IMG/VR virus record: IMGVR_UViG_3300025168_000469
Location: 1-28,711 of that record
DNA: 28,711 bases
Origin: a virus
Strand: one strand, 5' to 3'
Position 1 is the stretch's first letter, and each line of letters starts with the position of its first letter. The notes under the pieces are model-generated. The model had not been told where the DNA came from and ran no database searches. It worked only from the letters and a program-made list of their open reading frames with translations. Shown piece after piece: positions 2,970-26,498 of the stretch. The position numbers and the translations under genes are program-made.

Positions 2970-2981
2970 GCCGGGGACGGC
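2970..2981 (+). promoter_or_regulatory. Leader hairpin with GGGA loop
   Basis: GCCG pairs with CGGC around a GGGA (GNRA-type) loop, 26 bases before the start codon of the 3008 gene and ahead of its CACGGAGA ribosome site. It belongs to the recurring leader family described in the findings. Confidence 0.5.
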
Positions 2982-3007
2982 ACCGCGACAACCACGGAGA
3001 AACAAAC

Positions 3008-3244
3008 ATGGTGCGCACCTTCAACGTTCCTGCTGACGCTGATCTTTTCTGCGTCGGTGAAGCATTCCGCGCCGACTACGAGGTCGGCGCTTCTCTCCTT
3101 GTCCGCGTCGACGCTCGGCGTGGCCAGACGTCCTACATCTACAAGTATTGCGCCGTGACACTTTCGGCTGATGGTCGCTGCGTGATCGACGCGGGTAGCG
3201 CGTTCGAAGACGTGTGGGATGAGGTAAGGCCCGTAGCAGCTTGA
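3008..3244 (+). CDS. Hypothetical small protein, 78 residues
   Basis: This encodes 78 residues with no family I recognise. The middle (GASLLVRVDARRGQTSYIYKY followed by AVTLSADGRCVIDAG) looks like a small beta-rich fold, with an acidic end. No signal peptide or membrane segment is seen. The start is fixed by the CACGGAGA ribosome site just upstream. It has its own promoter candidate and GGGA-loop leader, so it is probably expressed apart from the recombination operon, like the four small genes at 21425-22631. A host-interaction or anti-defence role is possible but only inferred from that cassette layout. Confidence 0.65.
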   Translation: MVRTFNVPADADLFCVGEAFRADYEVGASLLVRVDARRGQTSYIYKYCAVTLSADGRCVIDAGSAFEDVWDEVRPVAA

Positions 3245-3263
3245 AATAACGCCGCGCACATTC

Positions 3264-3290
3264 GCCCCGTACCGGTCGCCCGGTCGGGGC
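3264..3290 (+). terminator. Imperfect hairpin after the 3008 gene
   Basis: GCCCCG and CGGGGC at the ends, with inner CCGG pairings, form an imperfect GC-rich hairpin 19 bases after the stop codon. No T run follows, so it may act as an mRNA 3' end stabiliser or weak terminator instead. Confidence 0.35.
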
Positions 3291-3307
3291 TTCAGCAGTA
3301 GACAACC

Positions 3308-3323
3308 GCCCTGGGGACGGGGC
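3308..3323 (+). promoter_or_regulatory. Leader hairpin with GGGA loop
   Basis: GCCCTG pairs with CGGGGC (one T-G wobble) around a GGGA loop, giving a 6-base-pair stem. It stands directly before CACACGGAGACACA and the ATG at 3337. No promoter is evident here, so it may sit on a transcript from 2931. Confidence 0.55.
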
Positions 3324-3336
3324 ACACGGAGACACA

Positions 3337-3534
3337 ATGAACACGCACCAACGGACCCACCTCGTCTTGTGGCTGCTCCTGCTTTGGGACTACTGCGACG
3401 ACATCCTTACCGATGCCCTCCTCTGCGGAGATGGCCACCGGGAGACCATGGCGGCCCTCGACGACATCGAGACGGAGCTGGAGCGCCTCGGCCTCGATGC
3501 CCGCGACATCCCGGGGGCCATTCGCGCGCTATGA
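3337..3534 (+). CDS. Small hydrophobic-N-terminus protein, 65 residues
   Basis: The N-terminal stretch HLVLWLLLLWDYCDDIL at about 8-24 is hydrophobic but short and carries acidic residues, so it is a marginal membrane segment or an amphipathic helix. The rest (MAALDDIETELERLGL) is a charged helix. I recognise no family. It is preceded by a GGGA-loop leader and a CACGGAGA ribosome site, and its stop overlaps the next gene's ATG (ATGA), which links it to the membrane-anchored protein downstream. A lysis-related or small membrane role is possible by context only. Confidence 0.6.
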   Translation: MNTHQRTHLVLWLLLLWDYCDDILTDALLCGDGHRETMAALDDIETELERLGLDARDIPGAIRAL

Positions 3535-4010
3535 TTTACGTCGGCGGGTGCTGCATCACGTCACACATCAAAAAATCGACACGGTTGGAACCCGCAGCGC
3601 CCGTCGACACTCTCACCCCTGGATCTCCCATGCCCGCCGGAACCTTGACAGCCCTCGCCGTGATCTCTGCCCTTGTCGTCGGCTTTGGTGCCGGCTGGGG
3701 CCTTCGCCCGGTGCCGGACGCCTCCCAAGCCATCGAGGCGCAGACGGTCGCAATCAAAGCGATGCAGGACGGCCAAACGGAGCTTGCCGCGACACTCAGC
3801 CGCCCGGTGGTCATCGACGCCGAGATCAGATCGCAGCTCTCCGACATCCCGATCCAGTGTCGGAAGGATGCCGGCGGTGAGCCCCTGGGGGTCGCGTGCC
3901 TCTGGGCAAGCTGTCTGCAATTTGGGCAGTCGAATAGCCAGCGGCCGGAGTGTTCCGCGGTGCGGGATCTGCTGATCGACACGATGCGCGGCGAGGCGTG
4001 TGCAGATTAA
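3531..4010 (+). CDS. Single-pass membrane protein, possible lysis accessory (Rz-like)
   Basis: The 159-residue frame has one clear membrane segment at about 38-58 (LTALAVISALVVGFGAGWGL), then a helical stretch rich in A, Q and E (AIEAQTVAIKAMQDGQTELA), and a cysteine-containing C-terminal part (QCRKD, VACLWASCLQFGQ, RPECSAVRD). An N-terminal anchor followed by a helical periplasmic part is the layout of inner-membrane spanins, but no nested outer-membrane lipoprotein frame was identified, so this is tentative. The ATG at 3531 overlaps the previous stop; an alternative ATG at 3630 would give 126 residues starting just before the membrane segment and is quite possible, since neither start has a strong ribosome site. 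The holin and amidase candidates are on the opposite strand. Confidence 0.6.
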   Translation: MIYVGGCCITSHIKKSTRLEPAAPVDTLTPGSPMPAGTLTALAVISALVVGFGAGWGLRPVPDASQAIEAQTVAIKAMQDGQTELAATLSRPVVIDAEIRSQLSDIPIQCRKDAGGEPLGVACLWASCLQFGQSNSQRPECSAVRDLLIDTMRGEACAD

Positions 4011-4034
4011 ATCTCACAAATATCAGGAATCCTA

Positions 4035-4063
4035 TTGACGTATCGGGAGCGACGGGGCATAGT
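4035..4063 (+). promoter_or_regulatory. Sigma-70-type promoter for the 4112 gene
   Basis: TTGACG at 4035-4040 and CATAGT at 4058-4063 are separated by exactly 17 bases. ATATCAG lies just upstream of the -35, from 4020. The same arrangement is seen at 21750, 22148 and 22680 on the other strand. Confidence 0.75.
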
Positions 4064-4067
4064 AAAT

Positions 4068-4089
4068 GTGTCGCCGGGGACGGCGGCGC
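4068..4089 (+). promoter_or_regulatory. Leader hairpin with GGGA loop, longest stem
   Basis: A 9-base-pair stem (GTGTCGCCG against CGGCGGCGC, with two G-T wobbles) closes a GGGA loop. It starts within about 5 bases of the -10 and so would lie at the very 5' end of the transcript, ahead of CACGGAGAAAC. Confidence 0.65.
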
Positions 4090-4111
4090 TCACTCACACG
4101 GAGAAACGAAA

Positions 4112-4396
4112 ATGACCACCGCAACCGCAACCGCAACCGCAACCGCTATCACCTTCGACAAGATGGAAACCTACGACGGCGTTGGCGAGTGCTTCATGGT
4201 CGTTGACGGCAAGAACGTTGGCTCAATCAGCCGCGAGCGCCCTGTGCGTCTCGGCGCTCACCTTCGCGGGCTCGCTCGGGACACCAAGCAGTCCTACCAG
4301 TACACGGTCGAAGTGAACGACGTCCACATCGACATCGCAGACGGCACGAGCCTTCGCGCCGTCAAGAAGGCAATGATCGCAGCGTACAACGGCTGA
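4112..4396 (+). CDS. Hypothetical small protein, 94 residues, with TA repeat
   Basis: The protein begins MTTATATATATAIT, encoded by five ACCGC(A/T) hexamers, then continues as a compact charged domain (FMVVDGKNVGSISRERPVRL ... YTVEVNDVHIDIADGTSLRA ... KKAMIAAYNG). Alternating strands and a final helix suggest a small alpha-beta fold; no family is recognised. Start is set by the CACGGAGAAAC ribosome site. It has its own strong promoter and leader hairpin and is followed by a terminator, so it is a self-contained gene cassette. Accessory or anti-host function is an inference from this layout. Confidence 0.7.
   Translation: MTTATATATATAITFDKMETYDGVGECFMVVDGKNVGSISRERPVRLGAHLRGLARDTKQSYQYTVEVNDVHIDIADGTSLRAVKKAMIAAYNG
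4118..4147 (+). repeat. Hexanucleotide repeat ACCGCA x5
   Basis: Four ACCGCA units and one ACCGCT unit encode the Thr-Ala repeat at the N terminus of the 4112 protein. Unit length is a multiple of three, so slippage changes length without breaking frame. Confidence 0.85.
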
Positions 4397-4413
4397 GCAT
4401 CAAGACCGACCCG

Positions 4414-4434
4414 AGCCCCGCCCCGCGCGGGGCT
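4414..4434. terminator. Shared terminator between convergent units
   Basis: AGCCCCGC at 4414-4421 pairs with GCGGGGCT at 4427-4434 around a 5-base loop. It lies between the stop of the rightward 4112 gene and the stop of the leftward amidase gene, so it probably ends both transcription units. The T runs on both sides are poor. Confidence 0.65.
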
Positions 4435-4441
4435 TCGTCGT

Positions 4442-5014
4442 TCAGGGCCACGCGTCGAGAATCGCCCGCGCGTGTGTCTCGATGGCGTCACCGGTCAAGA
4501 GGTCGCGGTGATCTGGGTGGTCGATGAAACCCAGCTCTAAAAGCACCGCCGCGACACCTGGGGGCGTGACCGCGTAGGAGGGCTCGAGAAGGTTGGCCGC
4601 GTGGTTCCACGTGGAACGGGTCGCCGGGATGCACCGCGCCCGCCATCGCCCGTTGAACATGTCCGCGACCGTCGAGCACCACGCGCCCGCGAGACCCGCG
4701 CCCGTTGTCGATCGGGGGTCATTCATCCCGAGTATGTAGGAGCCCCCGCCCGCGTTGACGTGAAGGTGACACACGACGCCCGGGCCGCTGCCGATGGCTG
4801 CATGTGCCGATTCCCGCCGCGAGGTGTACGTGTACGGGCCGTCCGCGTCTGAATCATGCACAGACACCCGCGGGCCGCCAAGAGCCCTCACACGGGCCGC
4901 TACCGCCCGCACGATGTCTGCCTCTTGTCCCATGTCCGACGTAGCGCCCGGATCCCACCGGTAGGCGCCGTTCCGTGTGCGGTGGCCGTGACCGGGAATG
5001 ATCGCGATGTGCAT
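4442..5014 (-). CDS. N-acetylmuramoyl-L-alanine amidase (endolysin)
   Basis: The 190-residue enzyme matches the zinc-dependent Amidase_3 family, which cuts the amide bond between muramic acid and the peptide stem. Visible ligands are His9 in IIPGHG, Glu31 in MGQEADI, His85 in CHLHVNAGG, and catalytic Glu160 in LLELGFIDH, the usual order and spacing. There is no signal peptide and no cell-wall binding domain, so it should need the holin encoded just upstream to reach the wall. The ATG at 5014 overlaps the holin stop (TGATG); a longer frame upstream is a shadow of the holin. It is the last gene of the leftward unit. The coding region also contains a 14-base palindrome resembling a parS site (4604-4617). 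Confidence 0.88.
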   Translation of the reverse strand: MHIAIIPGHGHRTRNGAYRWDPGATSDMGQEADIVRAVAARVRALGGPRVSVHDSDADGPYTYTSRRESAHAAIGSGPGVVCHLHVNAGGGSYILGMNDPRSTTGAGLAGAWCSTVADMFNGRWRARCIPATRSTWNHAANLLEPSYAVTPPGVAAVLLELGFIDHPDHRDLLTGDAIETHARAILDAWP

Positions 5015-5295
5015 CAAGCAGACCGGTCGAGCTTGGCGTAGAGCCCACCAACCTTTCGCTCGATTCGTTCGCCTTGCTCTTTGCAATCGCGCATGCTTTC
5101 CAGCCACGCCTCTCGATCCTTGCCGTGTTCGTCGATGAGTCGATCGACTTGGGCGAGATGAGAGTCAACCCAGCGCGTGCAGGCTGGGATGATGGTGTTC
5201 TGCAGGAATCGCCACAGTGCGAGACCGATCGTCAGCAGCAGCAGGAGCGATGAGGTCGGGCCGGTGGCCAGACTAAGCCATGCCTGTTCATCCAT
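5014..5295 (-). CDS. Holin-like membrane protein
   Basis: This encodes 93 residues with a single hydrophobic segment at about 15-33 (SSLLLLLTIGLALWRFL), then a long charged helix rich in D, E, R and K (VDRLIDEHGKDREAWLESMR) likely to be a coiled coil. One-membrane-segment proteins directly upstream of an endolysin are typical class III holin or anti-holin candidates. The ATG at 5295 is chosen because GGAG at 5304-5301 gives it correct spacing; the GTG at 5301 lies inside that ribosome site. It overlaps the previous gene by 8 bases and the amidase by 1. Function rests on context and topology, not on a family match. Confidence 0.6.
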   Translation of the reverse strand: MDEQAWLSLATGPTSSLLLLLTIGLALWRFLQNTIIPACTRWVDSHLAQVDRLIDEHGKDREAWLESMRDCKEQGERIERKVGGLYAKLDRSA

Positions 5296-5575
5296 TTCCA
5301 CTCCAGGCGAGCACCGCCGCGGTGATCCCGAGCTGATCGAGATGGCTTTTCAAGACCCCGGTCTGACCCGCCGCTACCCGGGCTCGGATGTCTGCGGCGA
5401 CACCTGCGACCGTTGCGGAGTCAACGCCCGTGCAGATCATGCCGACCTCCAGATCATCGGCCGGGGTGAGCTGGAGCGATGGCGCGTCGATCGGCGCCGT
5501 GGCCTCGATGTGTGCGAGGGCGTCGCCGTTGTCCGCGTACGCGACCTCGACAAGCCTGATCCAATCGTTGTTCAT
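5288..5575 (-). CDS. Hypothetical protein at the end of the tail module, 95 residues
   Basis: The sequence opens MNNDWIRLVEVAYADNGD, has an acidic middle (TPADDLEVGMI) and ends with a helical region (VAADIRARVAAGQTGVLKSH). No membrane segment and no family recognised. It overlaps the fibre-like gene by 4 bases and the holin-like gene by 8, so it is co-translated with tail and lysis genes. It could be a small tail or fibre-assembly protein; this is inferred from position only. Confidence 0.6.
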   Translation of the reverse strand: MNNDWIRLVEVAYADNGDALAHIEATAPIDAPSLQLTPADDLEVGMICTGVDSATVAGVAADIRARVAAGQTGVLKSHLDQLGITAAVLAWSGNG

Positions 5576-6378
5576 TTGTACCTCTGCACGAGGATGCGAG
5601 TCACGGTGCAGTCTGCCTTCTCACCGACGCCGACGTAGGCGTTTAGGCCGTCACCTTGGTATATGGGCGTTGAATCGTTTAGGCCTACTGCATCTCCGCC
5701 CACTGTTATAGTGCCTGAACCGCCCGGTAGCGGTGTCGGTGGCGTGGTGCCCGACGTGTCCATGATCTCGACAATTGCCCCAGACAAAACAATCGACGTG
5801 ATGACCCGCGACGTCTTGATCGCGGTGGTCGCGAGTACGCTGCTGTTTGAGGTATTTGACCTTACCCGCACATCCTCGTTGGTGCCGTCGTTGTTGTCTT
5901 TTACGTATATGCCGCGCGCTTCTCCGCCGTTGTGGCTGGCATTGTTGCCCTTGTTGACCCCTATGAACGCCTGAGAAGACCCAGCGTTAGGGTATACAAG
6001 GGACGTGATGACTACGTGAACCGCGTAAATGTACGACGACACGTCCGCGCGCGTGTAGCTGTCAAGGAGCGCGTCAATGTCCCACGCTGCTGTGACCGTG
6101 CCTGATCCGGTCCCGCCGTCGCACAATAGCCCGGTGCCGTTCGTGGCTGTGACGCTGCCGTTTGCCGACGAGAACCGCGTAACTGTCTGCGATAGCGTCG
6201 CGTCGCTGCTCTCAAATTGCAACGTCACGGTGCCGCTCGTTTGCGCGCTTGCTGTGGTCACGTCTGTGAGATCGAGGTCGACAAGGGCGGTCCACGCTCC
6301 ACCGGACGCACCGCCGCCGCCGCCGCCGCTTGCCGCGTCGGGGGTCGCCGGGAACGATGGCGCCGCGGGGTAGGCCAT
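5572..6378 (-). CDS. Tail fibre / receptor-binding candidate
   Basis: The 268-residue protein has a short N-terminal part (MAYPAAPSFPATPDAA), a glycine hinge (GGGGGGASGG) and then a long Ser/Thr/Gly-rich beta-type domain with few charges, ending YVGVGEKADCTVTRILVQRY. A short attachment region, flexible linker and beta-sandwich-like body is the common plan of phage surface and fibre proteins. It lies after the tail tip genes and before lysis, where receptor-binding proteins usually are. No catalytic residues are apparent. The start overlaps the preceding stop by one base. The call is by composition and position, so moderate. Confidence 0.55.
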   Translation of the reverse strand: MAYPAAPSFPATPDAASGGGGGGASGGAWTALVDLDLTDVTTASAQTSGTVTLQFESSDATLSQTVTRFSSANGSVTATNGTGLLCDGGTGSGTVTAAWDIDALLDSYTRADVSSYIYAVHVVITSLVYPNAGSSQAFIGVNKGNNASHNGGEARGIYVKDNNDGTNEDVRVRSNTSNSSVLATTAIKTSRVITSIVLSGAIVEIMDTSGTTPPTPLPGGSGTITVGGDAVGLNDSTPIYQGDGLNAYVGVGEKADCTVTRILVQRYK

Positions 6379-6794
6379 CAGACGCCCCCGATCGTCGGGA
6401 TCACGTAGACGTCGACCGTTCCGGCGTTGTCGCTCGACCCATCAGGCACGAGCCGGACGTAGAGCGATCGGCCGCTGTCGAGGGCCACCATACCGCCGAT
6501 CCGCGCTGTGTTTGCCTGTACTGCCTTCGCTGTGCTGACCTCTTGAAAGAGCATCGCGGCGCCTGCGGGCACGGTGCTCTGACTCTCCACGGCCTCGTGG
6601 ATGTCGGTTCGGTAATTCGTGCACGAACCGCTCACCCCGTAGGTGTGCACTTGGGTAAGCACACACGCCGCGGGTAGATGCTCGTCCACTTTGAGCTCTT
6701 CCACGGTGGTCCCGCTCGCGCTCGCAAACGTGCACCGGAGGCGGTGAAGCTGCCGCCCGGCGGCATCTACGTGGATCGTCTTCGAGACAGCCAT
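6378..6794 (-). CDS. Small tail-associated structural protein, 138 residues
   Basis: The protein is beta-rich with a hydrophobic, low-charge ending (YVRLVPDGSSDNAGTVDVYV). I recognise no family. It has a very strong ribosome site (AAGGAGG, 4 bases before ATG at 6794), unlike the coupled genes around it, so it may be made in quantity. A 39-base gap separates it from the tail tip gene and contains the CGTGATAGGAT element discussed in the findings. It is probably a minor virion protein or a fibre partner. Confidence 0.6.
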   Translation of the reverse strand: MAVSKTIHVDAAGRQLHRLRCTFASASGTTVEELKVDEHLPAACVLTQVHTYGVSGSCTNYRTDIHEAVESQSTVPAGAAMLFQEVSTAKAVQANTARIGGMVALDSGRSLYVRLVPDGSSDNAGTVDVYVIPTIGGV

Positions 6795-6833
6795 GGGGCC
6801 TCCTTGTCTGTTGACCCGATCCTATCACGCGGA

Positions 6834-8411
6834 TCAGGATTCGGGGAGCACATGCAGACGGAGCGACACCACACCCGCGGTCCAGTCGCAAGAGATCGCG
6901 GTGACCATTGCCGGGCGCAAGATCCCGCCGCTTGTGGACATGCCGATACTACGATCGATCGTGGTTTTGTCCCACAACCCCGCGTGCGAGATGTCGACCC
7001 AATCGCCCACGCACAACTGAGCCGCTGACAGGTTCACTTGCACGTCAATGACGACGCAAATCCGCGTGTGCCACGGCCCCGAACGGCGCGCGATCGACTC
7101 GTTGATCACAACCTGATTCTGGTAGACGTTGGGCCACGCCTGGATCAGTGGGCCGCCTGCGACGGTGCCGATCATGGGCCGTGTATCAGGCGCCTCGATA
7201 ATGCCGAACGAGTCCGGTAGGGACGCCCCGATGACCGTGAAATACCGCGCCTCTGCACCGTTCCCGGGGTCGTAGTTCGACCGCTGGGGCAACACGGCGA
7301 GGATGTTTGATCGGTCGAGCTTCATCGTAAAGGCGGGCGTGTGGCGCCAGTAGTCGAGCGCCGGCCGGATGCTGATCTGCCCTTGCCGTGTGCAAAGCCA
7401 CAGCCCGTATCGAGCAAGCTCCGCCTGGAGCCACTGGATCGGGGGCGTCTGCGGCGAGGTTGCCGCGGTCTGCACGATGTAGGTGCCAGACGAGATCGTG
7501 CCGTTGAGCCGTCCGGCGGTTTGGCTGAACCCGTCCACGTCGATCAGATCGGCCGGGATGCCGAGCCCCCAAGCCTTGGGGAGCGTGTCGTGTGTGCCGT
7601 TCGTGCCTGCGCCTGTGCTGGTGAGGATGCGCCGGGCCATGTCGACGGGGTGGCGATTGACCCAGCACACCTCTTGGATCTTGTCACCTGTGACGGCGCT
7701 CGATCCCGTCGTGGCGAACTGTGCCGAGGTGCTGACCCCGGTGAGGTTGTTCCCCGAGACGCCCGTGTACGTGACGATGTAGGGCTCTCCGCTTGTCGGT
7801 GTCACGAGCACCGCGCCGTCCTGCCCGGTCTCGCGCTCCATCTGCGGGGACGATGTGAGCTGGATCGTCGTGTGCGTGCCAAAATTGAAATTTGCCGCCA
7901 GTGTGCCCGTGTGCGGGCTGTCGACTGTGCAATCGGGGAAAAGTCCGGCGTCCTGATTCGTCGTGACCGCTACCAGCGCCTCGGGCCGGCTGATGATCAG
8001 CGCCAGCGGCCCCCAGCCTGACACGATGCTTTGCGGCCCGACGCCCGACACGTCGCGCGCCTGCCCCACGATGATCCGCTCTGCCATGCCGACGCCGAAA
8101 AGACGCAAGTAAATCTCACACGCCGCGCCCCGGGGGAGCGATTGCACAGCCCACTCCCCAGCCTCGATGCCTGCGAGGGCGGTTCTCCACTGCGACTGAC
8201 TCACCGCAAAGCTGGGGATCGATAGCGACTGTGACGACAGCGAGAGCGGCGCCCCTGGTGACAGCGCGATCAACCCGTGCGACCCCTGATCGGAGCGCGC
8301 GTAGTCGCTCGGGATGCCGGGGACAAGCGTAAACGCGGGCATCTTGCGCATGGTGTAGGCGCACGAATTCGACCCGCCGAGCGCCGCAATGAAAGCCGCC
8401 GCCCACCCCAT
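6834..8411 (-). CDS. Tail tip / baseplate hub candidate
   Basis: This 525-residue protein starts MGWAAAFIAALGGSNSCAYT and is otherwise a soluble, beta-rich protein with long Thr/Ser/Gly stretches (EPYIVTYTGVSGNNLTGVST). The middle contains NRHPVDMARRILTSTG and WLQAELARYGLWLCTRQGQI, reminiscent of the hub domain arrangement of tail-tip proteins, but I cannot name a family. It is the second gene after the tape measure, the usual position of the tail-associated hub or lysin-bearing protein. No peptidase motif is seen. The ATG at 8411 overlaps the previous stop (ATGA); the longer upstream frame is rejected for that reason. Confidence 0.55.
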   Translation of the reverse strand: MGWAAAFIAALGGSNSCAYTMRKMPAFTLVPGIPSDYARSDQGSHGLIALSPGAPLSLSSQSLSIPSFAVSQSQWRTALAGIEAGEWAVQSLPRGAACEIYLRLFGVGMAERIIVGQARDVSGVGPQSIVSGWGPLALIISRPEALVAVTTNQDAGLFPDCTVDSPHTGTLAANFNFGTHTTIQLTSSPQMERETGQDGAVLVTPTSGEPYIVTYTGVSGNNLTGVSTSAQFATTGSSAVTGDKIQEVCWVNRHPVDMARRILTSTGAGTNGTHDTLPKAWGLGIPADLIDVDGFSQTAGRLNGTISSGTYIVQTAATSPQTPPIQWLQAELARYGLWLCTRQGQISIRPALDYWRHTPAFTMKLDRSNILAVLPQRSNYDPGNGAEARYFTVIGASLPDSFGIIEAPDTRPMIGTVAGGPLIQAWPNVYQNQVVINESIARRSGPWHTRICVVIDVQVNLSAAQLCVGDWVDISHAGLWDKTTIDRSIGMSTSGGILRPAMVTAISCDWTAGVVSLRLHVLPES

Positions 8412-9184
8412 CAGTATCCTCGCCCGAGCTGAGAGAATCGATCGATCACGGTTCGCGCCTGTCCAGTCGCACCGGTCAACGCCTCGCCCGATGCACCCAG
8501 CGCCCACGCTTCGGCCATGTCCTCGCGCAATTCGAGGCGCAGATCGAACGTCTGCCCTCTGGATGATGACGTGATGATCGGCGTTTCGAGCTGGTCCTCT
8601 GGCATCTTCAGGTGTGGGTAAAACGTCCGACGCCTGATCAAGATGCTTCCCGGGTGATCGTACCGGAGCGTCCGCGAGAGCTGGACCAAAAACGTCGAGC
8701 CGATCGCCGTGATGCTCTGGATCTTGTGGACCTCTCGCGCCCCGCCCGGGCTTGGAGACTGGATCACGACCTCATCACCCGAGATGAGAGACGCCGCGGC
8801 ATCCCACGGGGCGTATTTGTTCGCCGGGATCCCGATGACATCCACACCGCGAGACGCGCCCGCGACAGTGTACGAGCCAAACGCGGCCCGGCTACCGACT
8901 GCGACGCCGATCGAGTAGCCCGCCAGAAGGTGCGACTGAAGCGACCGCAGCCCACGGATCGCGATGGCCTCGGCCGTGACACTCGGTCGGAGGTGCTGAC
9001 GAATGAACACGACCCGCCGCCAGTCCCCGTATAGCTGCCGAGACATCCCGCCCGCGACCGTCTCCGACGTTGCCGCGATGACCTCTGGATCTTCGTCTTG
9101 TAGGTCGGTGATGAAATTCGGGATCGTGATGGTTTCGAGGTTCCCGATGCCCATCGGGTAGAAGCTGATCGTGGTTTCGCTCAT
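8411..9184 (-). CDS. Distal tail protein candidate
   Basis: The 257-residue protein is soluble, starts MSETTISFYPMGIGNLETIT and has strand-rich segments (GGAREVHKIQSITAIGSTFL). It comes directly after the tape measure gene, where siphoviruses encode the distal tail (Dit) protein that begins the baseplate. The C-terminal part (FDLRLELREDMAEAWALGAS) is helical. No specific motif confirms the family. Start and stop both overlap neighbours by 4 bases. Confidence 0.5.
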   Translation of the reverse strand: MSETTISFYPMGIGNLETITIPNFITDLQDEDPEVIAATSETVAGGMSRQLYGDWRRVVFIRQHLRPSVTAEAIAIRGLRSLQSHLLAGYSIGVAVGSRAAFGSYTVAGASRGVDVIGIPANKYAPWDAAASLISGDEVVIQSPSPGGAREVHKIQSITAIGSTFLVQLSRTLRYDHPGSILIRRRTFYPHLKMPEDQLETPIITSSSRGQTFDLRLELREDMAEAWALGASGEALTGATGQARTVIDRFSQLGRGY

Positions 9185-11442: not shown

Positions 11443-11446
11443 CTCA

Positions 11447-11656
11447 TCAGCTCCCGGGGGCGGGCATCACCCACATCACACTATCACCGTTGCGGTTGAG
11501 CCATTGCCGCTGGGTCTCAACCGCCGCGCCTGCGCACAACCGCGACACGAGCAGATCGAGCCACAGCGACAGAAGCGGTGGATCATCCAGCTTCGCGATC
11601 CATCGCCCCGGGGTCGTCCCGTAGCGCCTCGCCATCTCGTCGAGCGAGTGCAACAA
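11447..11656 (-). CDS. Tail assembly chaperone, downstream frame
   Basis: This frame overlaps the preceding chaperone gene by 74 bases and ends 5 bases before the tape measure start region. It encodes MARRYGTTPGRWIAKLDDPP and a hydrophobic C-terminal half (LLSLWLDLLVSRLCAGAAVE). In long-tailed phages the second chaperone is usually made as a frameshifted extension of the first. Here the frames differ by +1 and the overlap contains CCCCGGGGCGA (11613-11603), where a glycine tRNA on GGG could slip forward to another GGG. It may instead begin at the ATG at 11635 or TTG at 11656. Position makes the role likely; the mode of expression is inferred. Confidence 0.65.
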   Translation of the reverse strand: MLHSLDEMARRYGTTPGRWIAKLDDPPLLSLWLDLLVSRLCAGAAVETQRQWLNRNGDSVMWVMPAPGS

Positions 11657-13045: not shown

Positions 13046-13046
13046 T

Positions 13047-17719: not shown

Positions 17720-17761
17720 GGTTTTGCTCCGGTTGTGGTGAGGTGCCCAGCATGGGCGGTG

Positions 17762-17786: not shown

Positions 17787-17798
17787 TAAGGGGACAAG

Positions 17799-18677: not shown

Positions 18678-18679
18678 TC

Positions 18680-19927: not shown

Positions 19928-21336
19928 GGCTGGTCCCGCAGCATCGGCCCCAAGAGGTCGAGCAATGCGCCCAGCTCCGTCCTTATGTCGTCCTCGTCGT
20001 CGGGGTCGTCATCTGTGAGCATCGAGGCGAGCGCGTCGGCCTGTGCCTGGATGTCTGCGACGGCCTCGACATCGACAGCGGCGGTGGGCTCCGGTGCGTC
20101 GACCGGTGCCCCTGGTGTGTCGGGGTCGACTCCAAACTCGGCAAGATCGGGCGCGTCGTCGAAGCCCTCGAACCGGTACGCGTCGGCCGGGCTCATGCCG
20201 TGGGCGATGTGGAGCGCGACACGTTGTAGGCGTTCGGTGCGGCCGTCCTCCATCTCGGGGAGCACATGACAGACCCGCATGTCGGGGAACCCGAGACGCC
20301 GGACCAGATCAGTCAGGGCGTCGTCGATGAGGCTGGCAAGCGGGGTCAAGGTGTCCGCGATGTAGGAGCGCCGCTCCATCTCCGCCGTGGCATAGTTCGC
20401 GCTCTGGAGCCCCAGAAGGGTAGGCGGAACCCCGGTCACAGCCACGATCACGGCTCGGGTGTACTCGCGCGCGGACATGCCCCCCAGCTCGTCAACGGTC
20501 CAATCGAGGGCCTCGAATTTGCCCGCGCCCGAGAGCACCGCGACTCCGCCCGTCTGCTCTGTGAGGATGCGATCGATCTGCGTCTGCATGTCCCGCACCT
20601 GGGGACGGCCCCATGTGTTTTTAGGGTCGCTCGGGACATAGGCGGCATCCGGTCGACCGCGCCCGGCTTTTTTCGCCATCTGCGCAGCCATGGCCACATC
20701 AGCCGCGAGATCCCGATCCATCGGCTGGACCTCGCCCGTACCGTAGAGCCGCTGGATGCCACCGCCCGCAGCGCTGTAGTGGAGGTGGGCAACAAGATCG
20801 GGCGGGTAGCTGACCTCTGCCCCTTGGGTGTCGTACACGTAGGCGAGCGCCGCGCCGTCTCTCCCGGGCGTGATGTTCACCCGGGCGGGCTCCAGTAGCA
20901 GAAGCGCCGCGGGTGCCGTGCCCGGTGTGCTGACGCCGACGGGGAGCACGTAGGCATTGCCACCGGGCAGCAGATCGGTAACGAGCTGGGTGCGAAATTG
21001 GCGCGCGGTCTGGCTGGTGTTCGGCCGCTTCAGCAGATCACAAAGCGGATGATCTTCGATAGTCTCGTAGCCGTCCGCGGTGTAGCGCTGGACCTTCAGC
21101 GGTAGAGCGGCGAGCGATGCCGCACGAATCGCAACGGCGCGCCAATACCACGGCGACGCCAGAAGCGCAGAAGCGGCCCGGCGCGGGTCGTAGGCGGTCG
21201 GAACGGCGGTAGCTGACGCGAAGTCGGATCCAGCGTTGAACGACTCCACATCGGCCGGCGGGTCGACTGTGACGACAGACAGCGCCCGCAAGATGCGAAC
21301 TGGTAGCGATTCGGGGCGGGTATGCGTCGGGCTCAT
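19924..21336 (-). CDS. Portal protein, HK97 family
   Basis: The 470-residue protein matches Phage_portal: ASPWYWRAVAIRAASLAALP (family V...CI..IA..va..P), DHPLCDLLKRPNTSQTARQF, a TDLLPGGNAYVLPV core (L...GNAY), VSYPPDLVAHLHYSAAGG, VLSGAGKFEALDWTVDELGG and VTGVPPTLLGLQSANYATAE (family gVPP..lG). It forms the dodecameric ring through which DNA passes. The C-terminal tail is very acidic (MLTDDDPDDEDDI). The ribosome site is weak and the gene follows a terminator (21383-21405), so it must either rely on read-through or have its own promoter in the 46-base gap. Confidence 0.92.
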   Translation of the reverse strand: MSPTHTRPESLPVRILRALSVVTVDPPADVESFNAGSDFASATAVPTAYDPRRAASALLASPWYWRAVAIRAASLAALPLKVQRYTADGYETIEDHPLCDLLKRPNTSQTARQFRTQLVTDLLPGGNAYVLPVGVSTPGTAPAALLLLEPARVNITPGRDGAALAYVYDTQGAEVSYPPDLVAHLHYSAAGGGIQRLYGTGEVQPMDRDLAADVAMAAQMAKKAGRGRPDAAYVPSDPKNTWGRPQVRDMQTQIDRILTEQTGGVAVLSGAGKFEALDWTVDELGGMSAREYTRAVIVAVTGVPPTLLGLQSANYATAEMERRSYIADTLTPLASLIDDALTDLVRRLGFPDMRVCHVLPEMEDGRTERLQRVALHIAHGMSPADAYRFEGFDDAPDLAEFGVDPDTPGAPVDAPEPTAAVDVEAVADIQAQADALASMLTDDDPDDEDDIRTELGALLDLLGPMLRDQP

Positions 21337-21382
21337 GTGTCCGACGATATCACGCGCCCCCGCTCATGTCCCAAGAATGCGA

Positions 21383-21405
21383 GAGCCCCGCACGGGGCGG
21401 GGCTC
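21383..21405 (-). terminator. Hairpin terminator after the 92-residue accessory gene
   Basis: GAGCCCCGC pairs with GCGGGGCTC (9 base pairs, 5-base loop), followed on the leftward strand by CTCGCATTCTTG. That flank is shared with the related hairpin at 21826-21841, indicating duplicated cassette ends. Confidence 0.65.
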
Positions 21406-21424
21406 GAATGGTGGACTGTGCTAC

Positions 21425-21703
21425 TCAGATCGCCTTGTTGAGCGCGAGGTCCTGCGCAAAGACAATAGCCGCAACGTGGAACGGAGCCCCAGTCACGTCG
21501 GCAACGAATCGCGCGCCTTCGCGCCGTCTGCCACTACTCAGGAGGACTCCATACGATTTCGAGGCCGTGTGTGCGTTTCCTTGACCGTGTGGGTTGTCGC
21601 TGAAAAACTCCACGAGGCGCAACTCTGCCTCTTCGACCATGGCTCGGAAGCCACCGACGTTGAAGGGAAGGGCGGAAGGAATGAGGAATGAGGATGCGGT
21701 CAT
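21425..21703 (-). CDS. Accessory small protein, 92 residues
   Basis: The protein begins MTASSFLIPSALPFNVGGFR, has an acidic helix (AMVEEAELRLVEFFSDNPHG) and a strand-rich C-terminal half (FVADVTGAPFHVAAIVFAQD). No family is recognised. The ATG at 21703 is fixed by CACGGAGAAACACA upstream; a longer frame is rejected. It has its own promoter (21750-21778) and terminator, and sits between the terminase and portal genes, a place where accessory (moron-like) genes interrupt structural operons. Function unknown. Confidence 0.7.
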   Translation of the reverse strand: MTASSFLIPSALPFNVGGFRAMVEEAELRLVEFFSDNPHGQGNAHTASKSYGVLLSSGRRREGARFVADVTGAPFHVAAIVFAQDLALNKAI

Positions 21704-21727
21704 TGTGTTTCTCCGTGGTATGTGCGG

Positions 21728-21739
21728 GGCGTCCCTGCC
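21728..21739 (-). promoter_or_regulatory. Leader hairpin, weak member
   Basis: GGC and GCC flank AGGGAC in the leader of the 21703 gene. The GGGA loop is kept but the closing pair is A-C, so this is the weakest member of the set. An alternative 5-base-pair stem GGGCG/CGCCC encloses it. Confidence 0.35.
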
Positions 21740-21749
21740 TCGCCCTTTT

Positions 21750-21778
21750 AGTATGGCCTGTTCTGCGCCTGCCGTCAA
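21750..21778 (-). promoter_or_regulatory. Sigma-70-type promoter for the 92-residue gene
   Basis: TTGACG (21778-21773) and CATACT (21755-21750) are 17 bases apart on the leftward strand, with ATATCAG just upstream of the -35. Matches the other three cassette promoters. Confidence 0.8.
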
Positions 21779-21825
21779 TAGACTTTCTGATATTTCTCAG
21801 GATTGACGGGCGCAAGAATGCGAGA

Positions 21826-21841
21826 GCCCCGCGCGGGGGGC
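21826..21841 (-). terminator. Hairpin after the 81-residue accessory gene
   Basis: GCCCC and GGGGC with a GCGC loop and a two-base bulge form a short GC-rich hairpin. The next bases on the leftward strand (CTCTCGCATTCTTG) are identical to those after the hairpin at 21383. Probably a diverged copy of the same terminator. Confidence 0.5.
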
Positions 21842-21854
21842 GGCCCGTCGCCGG

Positions 21855-22100
21855 TTAGGCCGCGGCCTTTTCGGCGTCAATGAGACGCCGCTCCAGGTGT
21901 GCCAAGTATTCCCCGCGGCCGTTGGCTACACAGTAGTTGAACGCCTCACGCCATGCTTGCAACCGTTCTGCCGTGCGCTTCCCGGTGCCGCTTTCAATCT
22001 GGATCCAGAGGGTGTAGACCATCTCCGGTGCCATGCGGTTACGGCTCTCGATCATGTAGACGAATGTGTTGGTGCGGTGGTTGTTGAATGCTGCGGTCAT
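21855..22100 (-). CDS. Accessory small protein, 81 residues
   Basis: The protein starts MTAAFNNHRTNTFVYMIESR, has aromatic and polar residues in the middle (MVYTLWIQIESGTGKRTAER) and a charged C-terminal helix (YLAHLERRLIDAEKAAA). No family recognised; no membrane segment. It starts after CACGGAGAAACCACA and has its own promoter (22148-22176) and a terminator. It is one of four small genes inserted between TerL and portal. The fold looks helical; function unknown. Confidence 0.7.
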   Translation of the reverse strand: MTAAFNNHRTNTFVYMIESRNRMAPEMVYTLWIQIESGTGKRTAERLQAWREAFNYCVANGRGEYLAHLERRLIDAEKAAA

Positions 22101-22125
22101 TGTGGTTTCTCCGTGTTGTGTGCGC

Positions 22126-22137
22126 GGCGTCCCCGCC
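22126..22137 (-). promoter_or_regulatory. Leader hairpin with GGGA loop
   Basis: GGCG pairs with CGCC around GGGA in the leader of the 22100 gene, between its -10 and its CACGGAGAAAC ribosome site. Member of the recurring leader set. Confidence 0.5.
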
Positions 22138-22147
22138 TCGCCCCATT

Positions 22148-22176
22148 ACTATGGCCCGTTCTTCTGGATTCGTCAA
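22148..22176 (-). promoter_or_regulatory. Sigma-70-type promoter for the 81-residue gene
   Basis: TTGACG (22176-22171) and CATAGT (22153-22148) are 17 bases apart, with AAATATCAG upstream. The box begins at the end of the preceding 57-residue gene. Confidence 0.8.
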
Positions 22177-22193
22177 TAGGTTTTCTGATATTT

Positions 22194-22367
22194 CTACACA
22201 TCGACCGGGATCAGGATCAGATCGCCGGCCTCATCGGTCCACCCCTGGTGAGTCTCCCTCAGCTCGGGAGCGGTACCGAAGCAGGCGCGGCACATCTCGC
22301 GAAAGTCCTCGGGGCCGTCGTAGGTGGATCCGTTCGGGTCGTAGCTGTCATCTATGCAAAGGTACAT
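22194..22367 (-). CDS. Accessory acidic protein, 57 residues
   Basis: This short acidic protein begins MYLCIDDSYDPNGSTYDGPE, continues DFREMCRACFGTAPELRETH and ends GDLILIPVDV. The start is supported by CACGGAGAAACC directly before the ATG. It is the second gene of a two-gene unit with the 75-residue gene, 36 bases downstream of it, and is preceded by a GGGA-loop hairpin (22398-22383). Strongly acidic small proteins are often DNA mimics or inhibitors of host proteins; that is only a suggestion here. No family recognised. Confidence 0.65.
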   Translation of the reverse strand: MYLCIDDSYDPNGSTYDGPEDFREMCRACFGTAPELRETHQGWTDEAGDLILIPVDV

Positions 22368-22382
22368 GGTTTCTCCGTGGGT

Positions 22383-22398
22383 GCCCCCTCCCGGGGGC
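22383..22398 (-). promoter_or_regulatory. Leader hairpin with GGGA loop, perfect 6-bp stem
   Basis: GCCCCC pairs with GGGGGC around GGGA, between the 75- and 57-residue genes. There is no promoter in this gap, which shows the hairpin can occur without the promoter and so is likely to matter in the RNA. Confidence 0.6.
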
Positions 22399-22403
22399 GG
22401 TTG

Positions 22404-22631
22404 TCAGTTGAGAGGCCAGCCGTCTCGATCGGTCTCGACTTCTCTCAAGGTTTTGATTTTTTCAATGTGGCGCTGTGCTTCGTTTGCGCTCATTCCGCCC
22501 GTCGTGATGCCGTACAAAGTGCCGGCAACCTTTACGCAGATGTTCCGGCCGTCCTCAATCTCGGAAGGTTGAAAGGTGGCCAGCTCATCGAGTAGCTGAT
22601 CGATAACCTTCTGAAGCGGTGCGGTGTTCAT
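22404..22631 (-). CDS. Accessory small protein, 75 residues
   Basis: The protein starts MNTAPLQKVIDQLLDELATF with an amphipathic helix, followed by a strand region (RNICVKVAGTLYGITTG) and a helical end (ANEAQRHIEKIKTLREVE). No family recognised. It starts after CACGGAGAAACCACA. Its promoter lies inside the last codons of the terminase large subunit gene. It is the first of four small accessory genes between TerL and portal. Confidence 0.7.
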   Translation of the reverse strand: MNTAPLQKVIDQLLDELATFQPSEIEDGRNICVKVAGTLYGITTGGMSANEAQRHIEKIKTLREVETDRDGWPLN

Positions 22632-22659
22632 TGTGGTTTCTCCGTGTGTTGTGGTGCGG

Positions 22660-22669
22660 GGCTCCCGCC
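22660..22669 (-). promoter_or_regulatory. Leader hairpin with GGGA loop, short stem
   Basis: GGC pairs with GCC around GGGA in the leader of the 75-residue gene. An alternative longer stem GGGGC/GCCCC encloses it. Short stem, so weak alone; included as part of the recurring leader set. Confidence 0.4.
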
Positions 22670-22679
22670 TCGCCCCTGA

Positions 22680-22708
22680 AGTATGGCCCGCTATCCCTCT
22701 CCCGTCAA
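22680..22708 (-). promoter_or_regulatory. Sigma-70-type promoter inside the terL 3' end
   Basis: TTGACG (22708-22703) and CATACT (22685-22680) are 17 bases apart, with ATATCAG upstream. The -35 and upstream box lie within the final codons of the terminase large subunit, whose ending AEISENLLTGEG is encoded by this element. Confidence 0.8.
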
Positions 22709-24547
22709 TAGATTCTCTGATATTTCAGCAATTAACCGCAACCGCCGCGCCTCCATCACGAGGTACCGCAGCGCGTCCCAAGCGTGATCTGCCCCTACTA
22801 CCTCCGTCTCTCGATGGACTGTGAGTTGAGACCGGCCGCCCGCGTCGGGGTCTCTCCATGCCAGCTCTGCGATCTCGGTGCGAAGGGGTGCGGTGCTTGG
22901 GTGGTCGTGGATGACGAGACCGGGCGATCCGTCTCGCACCTCCAGAAGCCGATCGACCGCGGCGAACCCTTCCCGGCGCGCCTTGATCGCGGCGCGGGTG
23001 GGTAGACCCATCTGTGCCCATCGGTCGCGCGCGTCTGCGTCTGCGGGGTCTGCCGCCCTGGCGTATGGCTCGGGTGTGGCTCGACCTGTGCCGTGACATG
23101 TCGAGCACGCCTCGGCCGCAGCGAACCGCCGATCCCACCAGCGATCCGCGGGCCAGTCCTCGCGCCCGATCCAGCACGCTGGGCACGACTCCTCGCGATG
23201 GATCGCGTAAATGTGGGCGTCTGTGTTGACCCCTGCGACATAGCGGCACCGGAGCACATGCAGCACCCCGCGCGGGTCGACTGCGCCCCAGATGTACGCG
23301 AGCGGCGCACGAAATCCAAAGTCCAGCCCATCGACCCGGGGCCAGTCGGTCATTGCCTCGGGCGGTAGCGCGGCGACCACGTGCACGGCCGGATCCCACG
23401 ACGGGTGAACCAGCCCATCGAGCTGGACGAATTGCGCGTGTCGTCGGACCTGCCTCTCTCGCTCTGTCATCGAGGCAAGCCACCGGCCCATGGCGTCGCC
23501 GTCGATCATCGGGTTGTCAACCGGATCCAGCCGGTACACCTCGACCTCGCCCGCAGCCCGGGGCGGGTCGCGAAACAGGATGTCGATCACGGCTGGGCTC
23601 TTGCCCCGCGTCGGGGTGAACGTGCCGAGCCACCGCCCGCCCTGATCAGCGACCGCGCGCACTTGCTCGCGCAATACGTCAACGTCTCCGTGATCCTCGT
23701 CGTTGTGGACCAGTGGTGTCGACGTGCCCTGCCAGCGCTTCGAGGCATCGGCGCCGCTGGTGGTTTTGAAGAGCACCGATCCCGGTAGCCCCGCCCCACT
23801 GCCGGGTTGCCATGTGCTCGCCGTCTGTGCCGCGAACCGTGCCGACCATTGCCAATCGTCGGGGAGCAGGCTGTCATAGATCGGGCGCAGGTAGTCCCGG
23901 CTGTCGTCGTTCGTGATCGAGCCGGCGAGCACGAGCGCCGGGCCAGATTGCAACCGGCCGCGGGTGAGCCCGTTGCGGCGTAGCAGTTCGACCACATCAG
24001 GATGGGCCGCGCCCATTGCCGACATCACCCCACAGACTGATCCGCTCCAGCTCTTACTCGACCGGTTGCCGCCGAGGGCCACGAAATAGAGCGCGGGCGA
24101 GACCAGCCACCGCCGGATCATCTCGCGTTGGCTTGTGCGCTCTTCCTCGACTCCACACCTGGGGCAACGGTGCACACCCTCGCCCGTGTGCGTCATCGGT
24201 ACGCCGTGCATCGGTCTATCGTCGTGTGGGCCTGTCCGGCCGCATGGTTTGCCGCCCGTGTTCAGCAGGTTGCCGTCTGGACCCCTCGGCCACGTCACAT
24301 CAGAGCACACCCGACACTCAGGCCGCCACAGCTCGACGAAGCGAAGCGGGCTCCCCGCGTGCTCCTGTCGTTGTGCGATCTCGTGTTGAACCAGCCGCAG
24401 ACACGCGCCGGCAATGTCGGGCGAGACCTCGCACCCGTGCCGGACGACGTACAGCGCCCACCGGAGGCGGTCATAGTGGGACGCGTCGACACCTGGGGGC
24501 GGTGGGGCCTGTGGACGCTCGACGGCCCGCAGCGCGGGAACGCTCAC
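22691..24547 (-). CDS. terL: Terminase large subunit
   Basis: The 618-residue packaging ATPase and nuclease contains a Walker A-like GGNRSSKS at 159-166 (usually GGNRSGKS), a Walker B-like LVHNDED at 279-285, the coupling motif WLGTFTPTRGK at about 307-316, and a C-terminal RNase H-like nuclease with LDFGF (Asp409) and ADHAWDALRY (Asp587, Asp591). Two cysteine clusters are unusual: C78, C81, C102, C128, C131 in the N-terminal region and CPAC (455-458) with CSTC (481-484) inserted in the nuclease domain, both looking like zinc knuckles. The GTG start at 24547 overlaps the previous stop (GTGA) and has no clear ribosome site. Upstream frame extension is a shadow. Confidence 0.9.
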   Translation of the reverse strand: MSVPALRAVERPQAPPPPGVDASHYDRLRWALYVVRHGCEVSPDIAGACLRLVQHEIAQRQEHAGSPLRFVELWRPECRVCSDVTWPRGPDGNLLNTGGKPCGRTGPHDDRPMHGVPMTHTGEGVHRCPRCGVEEERTSQREMIRRWLVSPALYFVALGGNRSSKSWSGSVCGVMSAMGAAHPDVVELLRRNGLTRGRLQSGPALVLAGSITNDDSRDYLRPIYDSLLPDDWQWSARFAAQTASTWQPGSGAGLPGSVLFKTTSGADASKRWQGTSTPLVHNDEDHGDVDVLREQVRAVADQGGRWLGTFTPTRGKSPAVIDILFRDPPRAAGEVEVYRLDPVDNPMIDGDAMGRWLASMTERERQVRRHAQFVQLDGLVHPSWDPAVHVVAALPPEAMTDWPRVDGLDFGFRAPLAYIWGAVDPRGVLHVLRCRYVAGVNTDAHIYAIHREESCPACWIGREDWPADRWWDRRFAAAEACSTCHGTGRATPEPYARAADPADADARDRWAQMGLPTRAAIKARREGFAAVDRLLEVRDGSPGLVIHDHPSTAPLRTEIAELAWRDPDAGGRSQLTVHRETEVVGADHAWDALRYLVMEARRLRLIAEISENLLTGEG

Positions 24548-24702
24548 TGCTGAACCGGTGCCGCGCCCTCGGCAATGGCGAGCGCGTAGCCAAGCCGATG
24601 CCCTGCCCGGTAGGAGAGCCACGCCGTCAAGCCGTAGGCGAGCACGACCACGATCAGCACTTGCCACGCCAGCGCCGTGAGGCGGTCGGGGTCGATGGTC
24701 AT
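24544..24702 (-). CDS. Small single-membrane-segment protein between terminase subunits
   Basis: The gene encodes 52 residues beginning [21 protein letters not shown] hydrophobic segment spans about 11-29 (LAWQVLIVVVLAYGLTAWL), followed by a short basic loop (SYRAGHRLGYALAIAEGAAP). It overlaps the small subunit stop (ATGA) and the large subunit GTG (GTGA), so it is real by coupling, not only by open frame. A small membrane protein here is unusual; a superinfection exclusion or holin-like role is conceivable but not shown. Confidence 0.65.
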   Translation of the reverse strand: MTIDPDRLTALAWQVLIVVVLAYGLTAWLSYRAGHRLGYALAIAEGAAPVQQ

Positions 24703-25115
24703 TCCATGCCCCCGGCGAGCATCGCCGCGAGAGCCTCGCCCGGGTCGACCGTGATCGATGCCGTGGTTTCAACACTTCCGCCCAGCTCGACCCGTTCGGC
24801 CTTGGGGTGTCCAGTGCGGTCGAGAAGGGTCTGGGCCGCCGACAGCGCGATCCGTTCGTCCTCACTGCTGACCAGCTCCAGAACGCGCGCCGCTGCGGCT
24901 TTCGCGCCTGCCTTCAGCGTTGCCCGGGCGGCCCGTTGGGTGTCTGCCAGGAGGGCCGCGACAAGGTGCCGGTATTCGTCAATCTCTCGCCAACGGTAGA
25001 TCGTGGCGCGGTGTGTCCCGACCTCCTCAGCAATCTCGACCGTCGACGATCCCGCGGCCTCCATGCGCGCCGCTCTGATCTGCCTCTCGTCAAGTGTCGC
25101 GCTCTGTCGCGTCAT
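24699..25115 (-). CDS. terS: Terminase small subunit
   Basis: The 138-residue protein has a helix-turn-helix at about 25-43 ([20 protein letters not shown]) as in small terminases that recognise the packaging site, then a helical middle ([20 protein letters not shown]) and a C-terminal part with [20 protein letters not shown], a common segment of phage small terminases. The ATG at 25115 overlaps the methyltransferase stop (ATGA) and follows CACGGAGGCACA. Its place before TerL makes the role likely; the HTH also resembles transposase-type domains. Confidence 0.78.
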
Positions 25116-26092
25116 TGTGCCTCCGTGCTGCCCATCCTATCAGCATCAACCACAGCACGCCCCACAACCGCCGCAAGACGGGGCGGTACCGCGTTTCCCA
25201 CCTGTCGATACTGCGCCGTCTTCGGTCCTTGCCACGGGTGCCCATCGGGGAAGTCTTGCAAGCGCGAACATTCCGCAATCGTCAACCGCCTGCGCCCTGT
25301 TGCCATGTAGAGCGCATCTGAGGCCCGATTAATCACGCCGCTTCTCCCGCGGTCTTTATCGGGGTTGGTATGGCCTTTGGCCTCTGTCGCCGTCACAGAC
25401 GGAGCGGGCCGCATGAGGTAGCGCGCATTGGTCGCACACACCCCCGACGACAGCCCGAGCGCCTCGCCCATCGACACCCACGGGAGCACACGCGGCCCGA
25501 ACAGGTCGCCCTGTCGAGCCTTGCCCGGGTCGCCGTGCGTTGCCCTTGGAGCCTGGAGCGGTGCCGGCCCTGCCCAGATGATGACCCGCCGCCGATGCTG
25601 TGGCACCCCGTAGTCTGCTGCATTGAGCAGCCACCACCCGACATGATCGAACCGCGCGCGGAGCTGCGCCAAGATCACGACCTCGAAGTAGCACCGCGGG
25701 CACTGATACGGATCGGGGTGTCCCTCTGTGCTGTGAGCAAGCAACCCGCGCACATTTTCGGCAAGGAACCACCGCGGGCGGAATCGGTCGATCGCGTCGA
25801 CTGTCCACGGCCACCCGTTGCGCTCGTCCGTTGCCCCTTTGCGCTGACCAGCCACAGACCACGCTTGACAGGGGAATGACGACCATAGCAGATCGACCGG
25901 CCCTGGACCGCTCACAGCCTCGATCGCGTCGAGGTCTCGCACATCCCCCTCCACCACCGGCCCGAGCCCCGCAGCGCGCAAAGTGGCGCACGCGTGGCGG
26001 TCCCACTCACACAGCGCCCGGTGCCCGATGCCCGCCGCCTCCAGTCCGAGAGCCGCGCCCCCTGCCCCCGCGAATAGTTCGATCGCTCTCAT
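25112..26092 (-). CDS. C5-cytosine DNA methyltransferase
   Basis: The 326-residue enzyme has all core motifs: I FAGAGG (7-12), IV SSFPCQ with catalytic Cys75, VI AENVRG (Glu112-Asn113-Val114), [12 protein letters not shown] (164-171), [16 protein letters not shown], and X QVGNAVPP (297-304). It transfers a methyl group from S-adenosylmethionine to cytosine C5 in DNA. The target recognition region lies between VIII and IX and cannot be read for specificity. No restriction enzyme partner is certain, but the gene overlaps a GIY-YIG-like gene by 4 bases. Most likely it protects phage DNA from host restriction. The ATG at 26092 follows GGAGGGG; the longer frame is rejected. Confidence 0.92.
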
Positions 26093-26469
26093 CGTGTCCC
26101 CTCCGGTTTCATCTCGCGCCAGTTGGGGACATGTCGATCGAGCAGGCAATACCGCGCCTCCAGAAACGGATCGAGCACTTCTAAACATCCGTCGAACCAC
26201 TCGCCACGGACCCGGAACGCTTGGAGCTTTTCGTGGAGCCACGTCTCGACCTTCGCGTCTCCAGCTACCGCCGAGTACAGCCGGAGTTTGTGCGGGTTTC
26301 CACACTGGAGGTTTCGGAACCGCTGAAGAACATTCGTGGTTCTACCGATCTTGACGTATTCGTCAGCCGATACGATGCAGTAGACCTGGGGTCCGAACGG
26401 TAGCTTACCCGGTGGGATCGGGATGAAATCAAACAGCCAGTGTTCGATGTCAATGTCCAGTGCGCTCAT
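26089..26469 (-). CDS. GIY-YIG-like (T5orf172/MUG113-type) protein
   Basis: The 126-residue protein contains [19 protein letters not shown] (about 27-45), resembling the GIY-YIG-related strand pattern VY(I/L)....YVKIG, then [20 protein letters not shown] and a helix with [19 protein letters not shown] (family E..lH..f...R..gEWF). This matches the T5orf172/MUG113 branch, whose members are usually predicted nucleases. The gene overlaps the methyltransferase gene by 4 bases. The ATG at 26469 is preceded by CACGGAGGACACA and a GGGA-loop leader hairpin (26498-26485). A nuclease working with the methyltransferase (host DNA attack or modification-dependent cutting) is an inference; catalytic activity is not established for the branch. 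Confidence 0.7.
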
Positions 26470-26484
26470 TGTGTCCTCCGTGTT

Positions 26485-26498
26485 GCCGCTCCCGCGGC
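26485..26498 (-). promoter_or_regulatory. Leader hairpin with GGGA loop before the GIY-YIG-like gene
   Basis: GCCGC pairs with GCGGC around GGGA, 15 bases before the ATG and just ahead of CACGGAGGACACA. It is the only member outside the small-gene cassettes. Confidence 0.55.

Follow-up and report, generated by a model that had tools for sequence, protein, structure and literature searches.

A putative portable leader with a conserved GGGA-loop RNA hairpin precedes exchanged genes in a family of uncultured tailed phages

Accessory genes in a family of uncultured tailed phages very probably share a portable leader in which a conserved RNA hairpin with the loop GGGA stands ahead of exchanged open reading frames (ORFs). 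The stretch of DNA under study, hereafter the window, is a 28.7-kb IMG/VR record of such a phage, with genes for a portal, a capsid protein, YqaJ, RecT, a VapE-type protein, a C5-methylase and the terminase large subunit. As judged from sequence comparisons, the leader is a module composed of a promoter, the GGGA-loop hairpin, a short unpaired spacer, the ribosome site CACGGAG and a start codon. An earlier sequence-only reading of the window had recognized the hairpin but had missed this promoter-hairpin-ribosome-site module with its exchange of whole ORFs.

That reading placed the leader at eight gene starts, and it is present at all of them (Table 1), with the GGGA-loop hairpin just upstream of a CACGGAG that lies 5-8 nt ahead of the ATG. 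The stems listed for these copies are there, but several are longer than had been given (genes 3008 and 22100, and gene 4112, where GTGTCGCCG forms a stem of 9 bp). Two copies described as weak 3-bp stems, at genes 21703 and 22631, are in fact composite stems that continue below a mismatch, and that of gene 21703 has an A.C mismatch at loop closure. The stem of gene 3337 has six pairs, one of them G-T. The hairpin of gene 22631 is predicted from the leader alone, whereas with 24 nt of the coding sequence added it is outcompeted by a long-range fold. CACGGAG occurs 18 times in the window against 7.6 expected, and it also precedes a few genes (25127, 336) without a hairpin.

Table 1. Leader features of the window, with positions counted from its first letter.
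Feature	Position	Strand	Remark
Hairpin GCGG-GCCG[GGGA]CGGC-A-CCGC, leader of gene 3008-3244	2966..2986	+	pair probability 0.99
CACGGAG ribosome site, gene 3008	2993..2999	+	
Intercistronic hairpin GCCCTG[GGGA]CGGGGC, leader of gene 3337-3534	3308..3323	+	CACGGAG 3325-3331
Promoter-like TTGACG-17-CATAGT, gene 4112	4035..4063	+	
Hairpin GTGTCGCCG[GGGA]CGGCGGCGC, leader of gene 4112-4396	4068..4089	+	CACGGAG 4097-4103
Hairpin GCG-A-GGC-A[GGGA]C-GCC-C-CGC, leader of gene 21425-21703	21724..21743	-	CACGGAG 21711-21717
Promoter-like TTGACG-17-CATACT, gene 21703	21750..21778	-	
Hairpin GCG-A-GGCG[GGGA]CGCC-G-CGC, leader of gene 21855-22100	22122..22141	-	CACGGAG 22109-22115
Promoter-like TTGACG-17-CATAGT, gene 22100	22148..22176	-	
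Intercistronic hairpin GCCCCC[GGGA]GGGGGC, leader of gene 22194-22367	22383..22398	-	CACGGAG 22373-22379
Hairpin GCG-A-GGC[GGGA]GCC-C-CGC, leader of gene 22404-22631	22656..22673	-	CACGGAG 22640-22646
Promoter-like TTGACG-17-CATACT, gene 22631	22680..22708	-	
Hairpin GCCGC[GGGA]GCGGC, leader of gene 26089-26469	26485..26498	-	CACGGAG 26476-26482
terL-portal interval, four leader-driven cargo ORFs, content exchanged between relatives	21337..22690	-	

The leaders fall into two classes. Class 1 copies bear a promoter, which in the window is TTGACG-17-CATAC/GT directly upstream of genes 4112, 21703, 22100 and 22631 and in some relatives takes TAGACA/TAGACG forms. In this class the stem typically begins 2-6 nt from the predicted -10, and 13-17 nt separate the loop from CACGGAG. 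Class 2 copies are promoterless and often follow another gene directly, as at 3337 and 22367; their loop is 6-9 nt away from CACGGAG. The leader of gene 3008 is spaced as in class 1 and has a poor promoter match. Just 5' of the -35, relatives carry AT-rich inverted repeats (e.g. AAGAAATATCA..TGATATTTCTG) at L018:944, L018:1581, L010:1777, L020:908, L020:1393 and L015:1399, which are operator-like and reminiscent of the ESAS considered below; the window copies have only the half-like AAATATCAG at this place. Elsewhere in the window, repeated GTGGCTCTA / TAGAGCCAC words lie around an A-rich stretch at ~26505-26690, where the VapE-type gene is separated from the 26469 leader. This is possibly an origin or operator region.

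Searches with TerL and the portal led to 12 related IMG/VR records that contain the leader, the window counted among them; most related records are fragments. Together the 12 hold 36 leaders with a GGGA loop. Of these, 34 have C(A/T)CGGAG, a count from which two chance rows (L036:1010 and L037:8297) were taken out, and the other two are the leaders of L007 and L016, which keep the hairpin and have CCGAGAG, without a GGA, at the ribosome site in place of CACGGAG. A sister clade (L006, L009, L012, L013, L031 and L032) has no leaders, and its terL-portal gap is just 62-91 nt. A TerL search of genome_contigs found no relative. In the comparison with cultured phages, TerL was ~25-33% identical to that of Arthrobacter phages over part of its length, the portal and RecT had remote matches only, and the capsid had no match. 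The host search found no tRNAs; a VapE scan across viral contigs returned nothing, and VapE is widespread and thus uninformative on the host. Across 84,980 species genomes of bacteria and archaea the leader pattern gave 27 matches and no prophage of the window's phage family. Those matches that were inspected were unrelated, mostly coding-like sequence, with neither a promoter-leader context nor repeated leaders. The viral pattern search beyond the family returned single matches, or one record repeating an identical segment without such a leader.

A strict GGGA stem was defined as having at least 4 Watson-Crick pairs. The two strands of the window contain five, and shuffled sequence is not equally rich in them (mean 1.64), though its maximum reaches 7; taken alone, the raw count is only moderately unusual. 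Because this excess is too weak by itself, the case for selection on the RNA rests on placement and covariation. All five strict stems of the window are followed by CACGGAG within 2-11 nt. In the non-redundant family set, GGAG and a start codon follow 31 of 38 strict GGGA stems as against 188/3844 for all other tetraloops, where one of the 31 (L007:1340) is a chance match inside terL and the remaining seven include the two leaders of L007 and L016. At the leader position, this set shows no enrichment of other tetraloops. The element is absent from structural genes in both the window and the family set, and GGGA stems were not found at the leaders of other genes.

The sequence-only reading had taken compensatory stems around a constant loop as a sign of selection on RNA structure and had looked to related phages for covariation with the GGGA loop kept. 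Both expectations were borne out. MAFFT shifted the C-closing leaders by one base, and we therefore used loop-anchored counts and an alignment of G/A-closing leaders. With the loop as anchor, 25 distinct flank pairs, the two chance rows among them, form a mean of 4.88 contiguous pairs compared to 1.43 when the 3' flanks are re-dealt; the maximum of this partner shuffle was 2.88, and the observed value was reached in 0/10,000 trials. In the true register 92% of cells are paired, as opposed to 32-52% at slides of -2, -1 and +1 to +3; the slide of -3 gives 76% from only 25 cells. The 12-sequence alignment of G/A-closing leaders has two-sided changes at 6/6 stem pairs and a covariation score of 0.63 against 0.24 shuffled and ≤0.16 slid, controls that model relatedness incompletely. 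Stem differences are found mostly between separate sites and less between orthologues. About a dozen different stems carry one and the same loop. G-C, C-G and A-T closing pairs all occur with GGGA throughout, and the closing pair is formed in 23/25 distinct flanks, two copies having an A.C mismatch there. The loops are of the GNRA tetraloop type, a G-N-R-A loop on a closed stem, with GGGA in 36 leaders and GGAA in one. Together, these observations support selection of the hairpin as an RNA structure with a constant loop.

Folding of single sequences predicts the hairpin in nearly all leaders, while the accessibility of the ribosome site varies between folds. A covariance model built from 12 leaders strongly recovered the other promoter-type leaders, with rough E-values, and scored C-closing, class 2 and degraded copies weakly or near noise. 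Outside the family it returned just preselected chance matches. No Rfam family matched at the gathering score, nor at E up to 1.

The genes downstream of the leaders had been called unrelated and small. The former was confirmed by blastp at 1e-3, which sorts the 34 leader-bearing ORFs into about 31 unrelated protein families. The latter is mostly true, but leaders of relatives also precede three larger families, a C5-methylase, an N6/N4-methylase and a ResIII-type helicase. With the exception of a GIY-YIG-type ORF, the small cargo ORFs have no match of weight in Pfam, PHROG or PADLOC. Pairs of leaders with 70-98% identity over 64 nt are followed by ORFs whose identity is at the level of chance. 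The junctions can be followed in L023, a close relative that is 97% identical to the window over 3.5 kb. Homology between the two spans terL, the promoter and the leader, ends at window 22622, ~10 nt inside the ORF, reappears with the promoter and leader that follow (22195-22093, 95%), is lost again 8 nt into their ORF and is regained at the terminator (21406). The terL-portal interval is a cargo hotspot that has four unrelated small ORFs in the window (21337-22690) and two others in L023 (3479-4343). Likewise, the 26469 leader drives the GIY-YIG-type ORF (MUG113/T5orf172) in the window, where this ORF (26089-26469) sits between leader and C5-methylase, and drives the C5-methylase directly in L023. 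These alignments indicate that cargo ORFs are swapped behind fixed leaders.

One cargo family of ~106 aa is found behind two leader types (L016:1241, L015:1851 and L023:3918), and thus cargo and leader re-assort. Gene 4112 opens with an ACCGCA repeat run (MTTATATATATA, window 4112-4150), and several other leader-driven ORFs also open with ATGACCGCA.

We rank first a mechanism, to which we give an even chance, in which a hairpin at the 5' end would stabilize the mRNA and keep the ribosome site free whatever the cargo. In the promoter-bearing copies transcription would start at the base of the stem, 6-8 nt after the -10, and the 5' end of the mRNA would be the hairpin itself. This would block decay that depends on a free 5' end, and would prevent base pairing between the ribosome site and the changing sequence upstream or in the cargo. 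Any ORF inserted behind the leader would then be expressed at once, and promoterless intercistronic copies may do the same service for the downstream cistron. The fixed loop may act as a compact GNRA-type cap, or may additionally be read by some factor. As cited in PMC3997798, it is established that 5'-terminal stem-loops stabilize mRNA in E. coli (Emory 1992, Bouvet 1992). The main problem of the 5'-end model is that stabilization needs no fixed loop, yet GGGA is kept on the many different stems. The class 2 copies, which lie away from any predicted 5' end, also count against it.

The main rival, which we regard as possible though not probable, is that an RNA-binding protein of phage or host binds the hairpin, reads the GGGA loop and switches the translation or stability of the accessory genes. 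A GGGA loop kept in 36 leaders while stems vary is what such a protein would call for, but orthologous copies of one intercistronic (class 2) site differ in their loops, with GGGA in the window, GGAA in L024 and an unrelated, larger one in L005, and two leaders close the loop on the A.C mismatch. The loop and CACGGAG are the sole upstream positions near 100% identity when all leaders are compared in pairs, in part through the selection of leaders by GGGA/CGGAG, yet the distance between them varies from 6 to 17 nt. The lack of the element at structural genes fits this explanation as well, although no candidate protein was found. The wider form, a phage RNA regulon in which a dedicated factor recognizes the GGGA-loop hairpin that starts every accessory mRNA and brings recombined-in genes under common control at once, is offered tentatively, as possible though less likely than not.

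We consider it highly unlikely that the leader is a CsrA/RsmA-type dual site, at which one dimer would bridge the GGA of the loop and the ACGGAG over the ribosome site and repress translation. The layout is as in glgC, with one site in an upstream hairpin loop and one over the SD (PMC7652899); CACGGAG fits A-N-GGA, and two leaders read CA[GGGA]TG, near the SELEX consensus CARGGAUG. However, the high-affinity CsrA loop is ANGGAX, defined by the A before NGGA (PMC4005645), and this A precedes GGGA in just 4/25 distinct flanks and is missing in 21/25. The hairpin is also kept in L007 and L016, where the GGA at the ribosome site is gone, and a search of 21 phage records, mostly fragments, turned up no CsrA. 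More improbable still is a site of folded single-strand DNA through which cargo would be recombined, as at integron attC. Cargo ORFs are indeed exchanged adjacent to the element and structure is kept more than stem sequence, but in one close pair the junctions fall outside the hairpin, 8-10 nt beyond the ATG at one side and at the terminator or the following promoter at the other, which makes such a site unlikely; in addition, the element is invariably on the sense strand right ahead of the ribosome site, and ordinary homologous recombination would be enough in a phage with YqaJ and RecT genes. Least credible is a leader spread by duplication and recombination whose hairpin is a by-product of GC-rich sequence with no RNA function: promoter-type copies are near-identical and perhaps recent, and the stem count of the window exceeds shuffles only moderately, but this is contradicted by the covariation, with compensatory change at every pair of about a dozen stems on one loop, and other loops have no such placement. 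A double-stranded DNA operator was rejected, as it would preserve the sequence of the stem and not its pairing.

Phages carry many small, quickly changing genes, and the leader would be a standard expression slot for them, with the family holding the module at defined places and changing the ORF behind it. This gives a handle for mining, as ORFs behind the leader are very likely real accessory genes despite matching nothing. If the regulon reading were true, it would amount to plug-and-play expression of small genes that can be exchanged, perhaps for host takeover or anti-defence. With the leader, start-associated phage elements of the SAS type, known since 2011, also gain an RNA structure that Rfam lacks.

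The claim that no phage regulon of this pattern had been described does not hold, as an analogue exists in SAS/ESAS, which has a different sequence and comes without evidence for a hairpin (PMC3203893). These elements of cluster K mycobacteriophages are the nearest described pattern (PMC3203893, PMC11373665, PMC12699233). Like the GGGA leader, they are specific to a phage clade, recur where non-structural genes from many families begin, and include the ribosome site. A subset of SAS copies has an upstream repeat with a promoter in it. SAS is a fixed 13-bp GGGATAGGAGCCC, for which the window has one 2-mismatch match, as expected by chance. ESAS is a 17-bp inverted repeat, for which its authors argue against an RNA hairpin; at the comparable place upstream of the -35, an AT-rich inverted repeat of another kind is present in several relatives, and the window has only its half-like word. 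The GGGA leader, in contrast, has an RNA hairpin with a covarying stem and a conserved GGGA loop, and its ribosome site is CACGGAG.

Among host systems, the ompA and papA leaders, as cited in PMC3997798, resemble the form predicted for the promoter-bearing copies, with a stem right at the 5' terminus of the mRNA and a free ribosome site after it. They are single host genes with no fixed loop, whereas the GGGA leader serves many unrelated phage genes with one loop and has intercistronic copies. The glgC-type CsrA/Rsm leaders share a GGA in the upstream hairpin loop and, with most copies, a GGA motif at the SD (PMC7652899, PMC4005645). The GGGA leaders differ from them in that the leading A of the loop is mostly absent, some copies lack the GGA of the ribosome site and the 21 phage records searched yielded no csrA. 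Frpo is a promoter of single-stranded DNA. As described in PMC11541004, Frpo promoters resemble the GGGA leader as one repeated expression element before different accessory genes, there anti-defence genes in plasmid leading regions; in the GGGA leader, by contrast, a conventional promoter precedes the hairpin, which shows covariation as RNA.
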